Shown here: piece after piece, positions 9,001-32,001 of the stretch
Position numbering within the stretch: position 1 is the stretch's first letter
Layout: each line of letters begins with the position of its first letter
Assembly (NCBI GenBank): GCA_024280935.1
Contig: JAJRPE010000068.1
Location: forward strand, 1 to 34,874
Source of the DNA: Candidatus Hydrogenedentota bacterium
Lineage (GTDB): Bacteria; Hydrogenedentota; Hydrogenedentia; Hydrogenedentales; JAEUWI01
DNA length: 34,874 nucleotides
Direction of reading: 5' to 3'
The notes under the pieces: generated by a model
What the model saw: the letters and a program-made list of their open reading frames with translations, nothing else
The model's database searches: none
Told to the model about the DNA's origin: nothing
Position numbers and translations under genes: made by a program

Positions 9001-9269
9001 ATGACATACTTACGATTTGAGTGGGACCCGGCCAAAGCTAAAGCGAACCAGCAGAAACATGGTATTCACTTCGAAGAGGCGCAATGGGTCTTTGATGATG
9101 AATTCGCATTGCTACTTGCCGACCCGGACCACTCAGAATCGGAATGTGCCGCCAGAACAGGTTGCTCCTTGTTTGCCATGCCTATCGGCGGGAAGATACG
9201 TTGGTGCGAATTATCTCTGCCCGGAAAGCGACACGCACGGAACGGCGTGTCTATGAGGATAGACGATGA
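9001..9269 (+). pseudogene. brnT: BrnT-family toxin, frameshifted
   Basis: BrnT is the ribonuclease toxin of the BrnT/BrnA type II toxin-antitoxin system. The N-terminal half reads normally from the ATG at 9001: FEWDPAKAKANQQKHGI, FEEAQWVFDD and LADPDHSESE. After about position 9145 the family sequence continues only in the next frame: LLLVCHAYRREDTLVRIIS (from 9162) followed by ARKATRTERRVYEDRR and TGA at 9267-9269. Only 17 bases separate the two halves where intact members have roughly a dozen residues, so a deletion of about 20 bases seems to have removed the strand between them and shifted the frame. In the original frame translation runs on to 9282, yielding a 93-residue hybrid. The restored frame overlaps the brnA start as ATGA, the usual arrangement. 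No ribosome site is obvious; TATAAT lies directly before the start codon. Confidence 0.85.
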
Positions 9270-9478
9270 GAAGCGAATATGACTTTAGCAAGGCCGTGCG
9301 TAATCCTTATCCGCGCCATGCGAAGAAGCAAGTAACGCTTCGGCTGAATGAGGATGTCATTGCTTATTTCAAGGGAATGGCGGAAGAGTCGGGCGTGCCC
9401 TATCAGAATCTGATTAACTCCTACCTGTTGGACTGCAAGGAGTCGGGGAAAAAACTGGAAATGGTGTGGAAAGCCTGA
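9266..9478 (+). CDS. brnA: BrnA-family antitoxin
   Basis: A 70-residue antitoxin and probable autorepressor. The pattern YDFSKAVRNPY at the N-terminus contacts the toxin in the family, and KKQVTLRLNEDVIAYFKGMAEESGVPYQNLINSYLLDC is the ribbon-helix-helix DNA-binding part. The gene appears intact and complete. Its ATG at 9266-9268 overlaps the last codons of the restored brnT frame, and would be translationally coupled to it; with the toxin frameshifted, ribosomes in the hybrid frame end at 9282 instead, still close enough for reinitiation. Without a working toxin the gene is presumably a remnant or a stand-alone repressor. Confidence 0.9.
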   Translation: MRSEYDFSKAVRNPYPRHAKKQVTLRLNEDVIAYFKGMAEESGVPYQNLINSYLLDCKESGKKLEMVWKA

Positions 9479-27936: not shown

Positions 27937-28440
27937 TCCATGCTCCCATCTTTGTTCAATGTCTCAAAATGACTCTTGCCGCCCCCGGCGGCCTCCCGGC
28001 GATTGGTCAACGTGCCGCACGGCAAGTCTTGGGAGAATCGCCCCCATACGCACCAACTCCACAGCCGTCTATAACACGATTATACCGATCAACCCACAAA
28101 AACAACAACGAGAGAAAAGCCCGCCACATCGAACAGCATCCTGCCCGCCGGGTGAAGGACTGTACACCGCTATCGCGGCATCCCTCCAAGTCCCACAGAC
28201 ACTATTTGCAGCGTGAATGTCCGCTTCTCGTCAACGCTTTACGGGCAAAACTTCGTTTCCTATTCACCGGCAGCCCGTTGCAAAAGGCGCGTGAAGGCGA
28301 GAATGAGACCTCGAAGCCATTCAGAATCGGTGCTGGTGACGAAAATGTACAAATTTCTGCCACACACCTTAACCCTATATATAGCAATAAGTTAATTAAT
28401 ATTATCGACATACTATCGACAGAAATTTAACACATAACTC
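27937..28440. other. Intergenic stretch without supported genes
   Basis: About 500 bases between the PHP-like lipoprotein and the recombinase-domain gene. A frame of 172 codons crosses it but shows no family resemblance and no ribosome site. GC falls sharply near 28370-28440, where the repeats ATTATCGACATACTATCGACAG and AT-rich flanks form what may be an upstream element for the next promoter. Confidence 0.5.
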
Positions 28441-28469
28441 TTGACATAGTCGTTGTATTCGTGTACACT
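28441..28469 (+). promoter_or_regulatory. Strong promoter of the recombinase-domain gene
   Basis: TTGACA (28441-28446) and TACACT (28464-28469) are spaced by exactly 17 bases, with AT-rich sequence upstream. Transcription from here would give a leader of about 180 nt, which contains a CGTCACC / GGTGACG hairpin (28589-28612) before the start codon. Confidence 0.75.
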
Positions 28470-28656
28470 GAGGATGTAATACTTGGGATATGAACAGTCT
28501 AAACTGCGGTACCGCCGAATAACTCGGCACCTTGCGCAACGCATTGTCGGTTGAGCACAGCAACACTGGTTTCATATATTTTTATCTTTCAACGTCACCT
28601 TTGTGGTCGGTGACGATGCCAGCGCAAGGCAACACTCATTTGGAGGTGCGAATCCT

Positions 28657-29178
28657 ATGAGTATCGAAACTCTTGGAACAGAAGTCGAAGTTAGTGATGG
28701 CCCAGGGCGTTTGACCCACGGGGCCAAGGTGAAGCGAGGCCAGTTGACCTCGGTTCAACAAGGACGCTACGGAACGGGTCCAGCCCCCTATGGATACCGG
28801 CGCGGCATCGAAGGGGAAAAGCCTTTGGTAGTCGATGATCGGGAAGCGGAGGTCGTGCGAATGATCTTCCGTGAGTATCTTGTCACCCGGAGCACGGGGA
28901 AGGTGGTCAATTACCTTCACAGCAAGGACATTTTTACCCGGAAAGGCAATAAGTGGTCGCGTCAAGCGATTGCGATCATCCTTTCCAATCGGACCTACCG
29001 AGGTCGAGTCAGCTATGGCGACTTGGAAACAGAAGGTCTGCACGAATCTATCATTGAACCAGCGCTGTTCTATAAGGCAAATGCCTTGAAAGAGCGGAAG
29101 CGCCGCCAGTCCAAAGTTCAATTACCCCTGTCGGCTGCGCCCAAGAAGCCCGGCAATTTTCGTTGGGTTGCGCCCTGA
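28657..29178 (+). CDS. Stand-alone serine-recombinase C-terminal ('Recombinase') domain protein (173 aa)
   Basis: The product matches the DNA-binding Recombinase domain of large serine recombinases: APYGYRRGIEGEKPLVVDDREAEVVRMIFREY (43-74) and the following helix-turn-helix region WSRQAIAIILSNRTYRGRVSYGD (100-122). The catalytic resolvase domain with its Ser nucleophile is absent, as is the usual zinc ribbon and coiled coil; instead 26 residues of its own precede the domain and the tail is basic (KERKRRQSK). It looks complete: strong promoter, GGAGG ten bases upstream of the ATG at 28657, and a terminator 25 bases after the stop. It might be a regulator derived from a recombinase, or a truncated remnant that kept its signals. 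Confidence 0.85.
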   Translation: MSIETLGTEVEVSDGPGRLTHGAKVKRGQLTSVQQGRYGTGPAPYGYRRGIEGEKPLVVDDREAEVVRMIFREYLVTRSTGKVVNYLHSKDIFTRKGNKWSRQAIAIILSNRTYRGRVSYGDLETEGLHESIIEPALFYKANALKERKRRQSKVQLPLSAAPKKPGNFRWVAP

Positions 29179-29202
29179 TAGACCGTAATACTCTGGAGCA
29201 AT

Positions 29203-29243
29203 AAAAACGCCGCAGGAACCAATCGGTTTCTGCGGCGTTTTTT
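29203..29243. terminator. Bidirectional rho-independent terminator
   Basis: CGCCGCAG and CTGCGGCG form a perfect 8-bp stem, extended inside by AACC / GGTT, and flanked by A and T runs on both sides (AAAAA before, TTTTTT after). It ends the recombinase-domain gene on the plus strand and tatB on the minus strand. Confidence 0.9.
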
Positions 29244-30923: not shown

Positions 30924-31277
30924 CTAGAATGCGCTGCCCGTTGTATTCGGGGCATCCTCAGGTTGCCGCTCCCCAACCGAAGGCGGCGTGGCTGTGGGAT
31001 CCGCCTTCTCCACCCACTCCTTCAGGGCCTTGCCCGGCTTAAAAATAGGAATGCGCTTCTCCGCAATGGGCACCGAATCCCCCGTCCTCGGATTACGCCC
31101 CAAGCGTGCGTCGCGCACCTTCACCTCGAAGACCCCAAAATTGCGAATCTCCAAGCGGTCCCCCGAAGACAAGGCCTCGGTTATCGTGTCCAAGGTAGTC
31201 TGCACCACATCAGACACTTCGTTTTGAGTGAAGCCCAACTGCTCCGCTACGCTAATCACCAATTCACGCTTGGTCAC
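30924..31277 (-). CDS. HU/IHF-family DNA-bending protein (117 aa)
   Basis: A small nucleoid protein: MTKRELVISVAEQLGFTQNEVSDVVQTTLDTITEAL and RLEIRNFGVFEVKVRDARLGRNPRTGDSVPIAEKRIPIFKPGKALKEWV cover the complete fold, with the beta-arm around GRNPRTG. It has a 25-residue C-terminal tail (DPTATPPSVGERQPEDAPNT) not seen in E. coli HU or IHF. GTG at 31275-31277 follows AAGGGACGCAG. It could work as a homodimer or pair with another copy elsewhere. The gene lies between the membrane protein and tatC on the same strand. Confidence 0.92.
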   Translation of the reverse strand: MTKRELVISVAEQLGFTQNEVSDVVQTTLDTITEALSSGDRLEIRNFGVFEVKVRDARLGRNPRTGDSVPIAEKRIPIFKPGKALKEWVEKADPTATPPSVGERQPEDAPNTTGSAF

Positions 31278-31325: not shown

Positions 31326-31898
31326 TTAGAATCCCAGAGGTTTTCGCCACGCGTCGGCCATCCCGCCGGGATTAATTATAATGAAGGCAACAATCGCGGC
31401 GAGTATCCCAAAGAGAATGATTATCGTCTTTGTATTCTTACTCATACCACCACCACCAGCGGCGGCCAAGGCATCGCCCGTGGGCGCAAGAAAAATCTTC
31501 TCGCCTGCTTCTGCCCGGGCACGCTTGTCATCCACGACACCCAGCGTCTCGTTAATCGCAATAAAGGCACGGTGCCATTCCGTTTGAAGTTTCTTTACCG
31601 CCACTTCGGACTGGGAATAGATCGCTTCCAAGCTGGTTGCGCCCGCCACGATGTGCATGGTGTTGTTGTCGAGATTGTAGTCGTCGGCAAGGGCATCCAT
31701 GAGTACCTTGTGGGTACGGGCCAGCTTGCTTTTTATCTTCAAAAATTGCGTTTCGAGCTCGGCTTTATTGATGCCCGGCTCTGGATAGCGCGTCAGAATC
31801 TGGTTGAACAACATCCAGTCATTCATAAATTCGCGGCACAACTCTACACGACGGACCAAAATGTCCAAGACTTTTTGCTGTTTTTTGCTCAGGGCCAT
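31326..31898 (-). CDS. Helical protein with C-terminal membrane anchor (190 aa)
   Basis: Function unknown. The first ~130 residues are charged and helical (KKQQKVLDILVRRVELCREFM, KIKSKLARTHKVLMDALADDYN, SEVAVKKLQTEWHRAFIAINETLG). A Gly-rich linker (ALAAAGGGG) leads to TKTIIILFGILAAIVAFIII, a single transmembrane segment near the C-terminus, so the bulk probably faces the cytoplasm as a tail-anchored protein. The ATG at 31896-31898 lacks a strong ribosome site; a GTG 11 codons earlier is the alternative start. A well-formed promoter and a palindromic operator-like site lie upstream. Confidence 0.72.
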   Translation of the reverse strand: MALSKKQQKVLDILVRRVELCREFMNDWMLFNQILTRYPEPGINKAELETQFLKIKSKLARTHKVLMDALADDYNLDNNTMHIVAGATSLEAIYSQSEVAVKKLQTEWHRAFIAINETLGVVDDKRARAEAGEKIFLAPTGDALAAAGGGGMSKNTKTIIILFGILAAIVAFIIINPGGMADAWRKPLGF

Positions 31899-32001
31899 TG
31901 TTTCTAACCACTCCGCGTTAATTGTCCCCACTCAGTATCGCCTAATTTAGCACATGGGTAGGACAAAGTCAACCGGCACAATTTGAACTAAGTCCACAGA
32001 T

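Follow-up and report, generated by a model that had tools for sequence, protein, structure and literature searches.

A stand-alone Recombinase-domain gene without catalytic domain, conserved across Hydrogenedentota and probably encoding a DNA-binding protein

Large serine recombinases dimerise through their catalytic domain and recognise the outer part of their site with the zinc ribbon. The inner part of the att half-site is contacted by helix alpha-E, the linker, which tracks the minor groove, and the Recombinase domain (PMC3783163). Large serine recombinases such as the LI/A118 integrase (4kis), YokA/SPbeta, phiC31 and CcrA/B share domain and fold, as well as the linker GxYGTGPAPYGY and the signature W..QAI..IL.N..Y.G, with the protein described here, which, unlike them, has no catalytic domain, zinc ribbon or coiled coil and is encoded by a chromosomal single-copy core gene outside any mobile element. 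Short two-domain serine recombinases devoid of the zinc ribbon, namely an ORF of 271 aa in genome G327 (L087), a protein of 267 aa from the B. subtilis plasmid pNIB353_5 and a Planctomycetota ORF (L053), are among the best outside matches of the Recombinase domain (L053 42%, pNIB353_5 38%) and likewise end soon after it, but they keep the resolvase domain. Eukaryotes offer well-known cases in which transposon or recombinase DNA-binding domains were recruited as regulators, among them the ALOG proteins, the published precedent retrieved here. In these regulators of land plants, a recombinase DNA-binding domain was recruited without catalysis in a whole lineage; they differ from the present case in being eukaryotic and derived from tyrosine recombinases of retroposons (PMC3537659). 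Going by its Pfam description, the recombinase-like helix-turn-helix family HTH_62 (PF20552) is also related; because only three of 36 members of the stand-alone family matched it (best E 0.031), the window protein not being among them, the family is not filed under this entry. Literature searches returned no earlier description in Hydrogenedentota and no phylum-wide, near-frozen bacterial case originating from a serine recombinase.

The gene is located in a stretch of 34,874 nucleotides (the window) from a contig of a 6.76 Mb Candidatus Hydrogenedentota assembly, the relatives of which are Hydrogenedentota MAGs. An initial sequence-only reading had described it as a complete gene for only the C-terminal part of a serine recombinase, with a Recombinase domain and no catalytic resolvase domain. 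The coding features are as follows:

28657-29178, + strand: gene for the stand-alone Recombinase-domain protein of 173 aa, deduced from the PF07508 match, the family alignment and the AlphaFold2 model (mean pLDDT 80.5)
28717-28797, + strand: end of alpha-E and linker GRYGTGPAPYGY, residues 21-47, deduced from invariant columns in the alignment of 36 sequences; role taken from PMC3783163
28837-28989, + strand: predicted helix-turn-helix, residues 61-111, with modelled helices at residues 61-77, 80-89 and 102-110

The ORF extends from an ATG at 28657 to a TGA at 29176-29178 and is preceded within a few bases by the Shine-Dalgarno sequence GGAGGTG, in agreement with the ribosome site recognized earlier; start and Shine-Dalgarno context are retained at loci L011, L005 and L006. 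The domain content was likewise borne out, since PF07508 (Recombinase) was the sole Pfam match of the protein (residues 62-147, E 2.1e-17, 63.7 bits vs a curated cut-off of 21.1) and was matched by all 36 family members, while the Pfam search gave no match to the resolvase catalytic domain with its nucleophilic serine (PF00239). Neither a zinc beta-ribbon nor a coiled coil was matched in Pfam, and the protein stops shortly past the Recombinase domain. The protein comprises more than the Recombinase domain alone: its residues 21-47 match the stretch in which, in large serine recombinases, helix alpha-E ends and the minor-groove linker follows.

In the AlphaFold2 model, pLDDT values exceeded 90 across most of residues 60-110, and the top solved structures retrieved with Foldseek were large serine recombinases, with the DNA-bound LI integrase 4kis ranking first (E 7e-8). 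More than 50 alignment columns between H21 and A141 were invariant among the 36 aligned sequences, including W100, S101, R102, Q103 and A104, and the segments matching, by sequence correspondence, the DNA-contacting linker and the recognition helix (residues 21-47 and helix 102-110) were among the most conserved. Judged by these features, the window protein is probably a sequence-specific DNA-binding protein. As it has neither the dimerising catalytic domain nor the zinc ribbon, the protein most likely occupies a short asymmetric site as a monomer.

The same stand-alone domain, for which a search in relatives had been suggested, was present there rather than absent throughout. Screening of about 85,000 species genomes yielded 42 loci of close relatives (69-94% identity) and more distant matches at a Planctomycetota locus (42%) and a Ruminococcaceae locus (39%). 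The ORFs of the close relatives mostly comprise 150-190 aa from a plausible start and are thus too short for a catalytic domain. Within the phylum, 59 of 68 genomes matched; after leaving out G029 and G045, in which only ordinary large recombinases match, the stand-alone protein was counted in 57/68 genomes, usually as a single copy, and in 35 of the 38 good-quality genomes (completeness of 90% or more, contamination of 5% or less). It was not found in the good-quality genomes G021, G038 and G045, and a second copy in G039 adjoins an assembly gap. Nothing comparable was detected in 318 genomes outside the phylum, where the best match (E 1.6e-24) was a frame of 296 aa representing a full short recombinase. 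The locus is not associated with mobile elements: its chromosomal neighbours are conserved phylum-wide, phages and plasmids contained no close homologue (identities did not exceed about 38%, and most matches were annotated recombinases or integrases), and the viral contigs searched gave no match at all.

At loci also carrying conserved neighbours, the core of the protein was 74-96% identical to that of the window and more conserved than HU (66-87%), TrpE/TrpG (mostly 72-86%) and TatC (40-64%) of the same loci. Core dN/dS values between species ranged from 0.004 to 0.05 (non-saturated, non-identical pairs). Together with the invariant columns, these values indicate that the DNA-binding segments deduced from the alignment are intact and under purifying selection. 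Across loci, a PHP-like gene lies upstream on the opposite strand (24 loci), a GntR gene also recurs (23), and TatA/TatC (15) or an isochorismatase-like gene follow downstream; this conservation of neighbours indicates that the gene has been passed on vertically and has kept its position on the chromosome. In the 23 relatives, the GntR-family gene sits between the PHP-like gene and the stand-alone gene, and tblastn gave no GntR trace in the corresponding gap of the window (27940-28440). Two further window genes on the - strand, an HU/IHF gene (30924-31277) and an uncharacterised gene of 201 aa without Pfam match (31326-31931), have relatives downstream of TatA/TatC at other loci of the phylum.

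In a domain tree including outgroups, a single origin of the stand-alone form was favoured but not proven, the support being weak (70/80). As a separate observation, the Planctomycetota ORF L053 (1526-2464), the Recombinase domain of which is 42% identical, has a resolvase domain in which the DRLxR motif seems to be incomplete; this domain may be degenerate, and the ORF is a possible intermediate.

The near-consensus promoter noted upstream of the gene was recovered, and it is overlapped by a further candidate element:

28441-28469, + strand: sigma-70-type promoter TTGACA-17-TACACT, 10/12 matches, near-consensus at 44/45 orthologous loci
28434-28449, + strand: operator-like element over the -35 box, AACTCTTGACAT in the window, deduced from position counts in 37-38 orthologous promoters

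At 44 of the 45 orthologous loci, a -35 box of the TTGACA type was followed by a -10 hexamer after 16-18 and nearly always 17 nt (the exception, L026, has no good -10), a count that is somewhat optimistic, as the best-scoring site upstream of each gene was taken. Around the -35 box, the phylum consensus in the 37-38 orthologous promoters reads AA(C/T)(T/A)nTTGACATtt. The string AACTnTTGACAT was present in 18/38 orthologous promoters vs 0/123 other strong promoters, and a T directly 3' of TTGACA in 87% vs 14%, where the 123 controls all stem from one family and the orthologous promoters span the phylum. Genome-wide pattern searches located exact WAACTNTTGACATT 38 times over 68 genomes: 16 occurrences were assigned to the stand-alone gene by matching contigs and positions, and the other 22 compare with about 21 expected by chance. 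Hence, the element flanking the -35 box is private to the promoter of the stand-alone gene, which fits autoregulation but does not point to a regulon. Parts of the phylum carry a degenerate version or none at all, as seen at L041, L046, L048 and L050. A shared regulon based on the promoter or leader motif was rejected, as the genes downstream of other matches are not shared.

The explanation preferred here, with somewhat better than even confidence, is that a recombinase part was domesticated and inherited vertically as a DNA-binding protein with sequence specificity, which acts as a monomer, represses its own promoter and regulates further genes. A Hydrogenedentota ancestor would have taken over from a serine recombinase only the half that binds DNA, i.e., the alpha-E end, the minor-groove linker and the helix-turn-helix of the Recombinase domain, leaving out the zinc ribbon and the domain for catalysis and dimerisation; the genome comparison shows that this half has been kept on the chromosome as a core gene in single copy. 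Going by the fold and the missing dimer parts, the protein would bind a short asymmetric site as a monomer; its sites would include the conserved element over its own -35 box, leading to repression of its own transcription, and further genes would be regulated via looser or other sites. The sequence-only reading had proposed a recombinase-derived DNA-binding regulator: derivation and DNA binding are well supported by the fold, the invariant DNA-contact segments, the single-copy vertical conservation and purifying selection, and the term 'regulator' is a best guess from the promoter element. Several points count against the preferred explanation. The strict element exceeds chance at the gene's own promoter alone and could belong to another regulator or reflect a tuned promoter; three good-quality genomes do not have the gene; some clades have only a degenerate element or none; and the control promoters represent a single family. 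A bolder version, in which the recombinase DNA-binding half would serve as global regulator or chromosome-organiser of the entire phylum and constitute a new core class with no member elsewhere, is advanced only tentatively. If true, the preferred explanation would provide a case of a mobile-element enzyme turned core cellular gene. The protein would moreover represent a natural binder built on the Recombinase domain that helps to understand how integrases recognise their sites, and the gene a marker gene for Hydrogenedentota.

Other functions were weighed against the same data. A nucleoid-associated protein, i.e., an abundant, basic, architectural protein coating or bending DNA with low sequence specificity, would agree with the pI of about 10, the small size, the strong promoter and a single-copy phylum core gene more conserved than HU. 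However, its codon adaptation of 0.649 is among the lowest of the window, compared with 0.67-0.78 for ribosomal proteins, and the invariant residues of the predicted recognition helix suggest a specific site, so that this function is considered unlikely. Still less probable is a factor devoted to a single site of the chromosome (origin, terminus or partition) rather than a transcription regulator: very strong constraint on a protein whose promoter element gave no sign of a regulon would suit such a factor, but a limited search yielded no such site, and the element itself points to transcription.

The sequence-only reading had also raised an anti-recombination factor. Such an anti-recombination or immunity factor would occupy att-like sites and block incoming serine recombinases. 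A recombinase DNA-binding half without catalysis, as well as the full-length recombinases in some relatives, are compatible with this idea. However, a search for a cognate full-length recombinase, suggested in the same reading, found none in the own genome, which contains one small resolvase and no other PF07508 protein. Resolvase domains occur in only 25/68 genomes of the phylum, and among the 35 good-quality carriers, 20 are entirely devoid of a serine-recombinase catalytic domain (count from two genome surveys); accordingly, the protein works without a catalytic partner and cannot serve as protection from a resident recombinase. Furthermore, the near-frozen sequence is unlike an arms race, and the full-length recombinases resident in a sister species show identities of only about 30-35%. 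Based on co-occurrence, both a partner of a resident resolvase and an anti-recombinase were rejected, the latter being regarded as highly improbable. Decayed resolvase codons next to the gene, named earlier as a sign of plain truncation, were not found: resolvase-domain queries, which did recover known recombinases, gave only chance-level matches in the flanks of stand-alone copies (1.5 kb on the upstream side, about 2 kb on the downstream side). A truncated pseudogene or mobile-element remnant, suggested by the absent catalytic and zinc-ribbon domains, is therefore dismissed with near certainty, given also the phylum-wide conservation, the low dN/dS of about 0.01-0.05, the similar length and the same promoter type.

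The transcribed regions outside the coding sequence contain the following features:

28476-28656, + strand: 5' leader of about 180 nt from the predicted start site, beginning with the recurrent CTTGGG at 28482-28487
28514-28528, + strand: leader hairpin GCCGA-ATAAC-TCGGC, recurring with changed sequence in other species of the genus
about 29203-29242, no strand assigned: Rho-independent terminator stem-loop with T-run, AAAAACGCCGCAGgAACC / GGTTtCTGCGGCGTTTTT, read directly from the sequence

Leader, hairpin and terminator, all claimed at the outset, were thus located again. Several leader hairpins recur within the genus with changed sequence, one of them placing the ribosome site in its loop, and a longer fold predicted in the window leader reached z = -2.0. 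No significant difference in folding z-score was seen between 42 leaders and the controls (p = 0.11), and Rfam returned no match for the leader at the family gathering score. A leader RNA conserved phylum-wide was rejected on both null results, the hairpins being a genus-level feature only. The CTTGGG motif near the predicted transcript start recurs across distant Hydrogenedentota.

The terminator stem-loop was not listed by a simple automatic scan, we think because its T-run pairs with an A-run. It is probably bidirectional, serving the convergent tatA gene too. Elsewhere in the window, an ORF at 9001-9282 matched the BrnT toxin domain in its first half, over residues 8-48 alone (E 7e-12), whereas its second half diverges from this family, which suggests a frameshifted BrnT.
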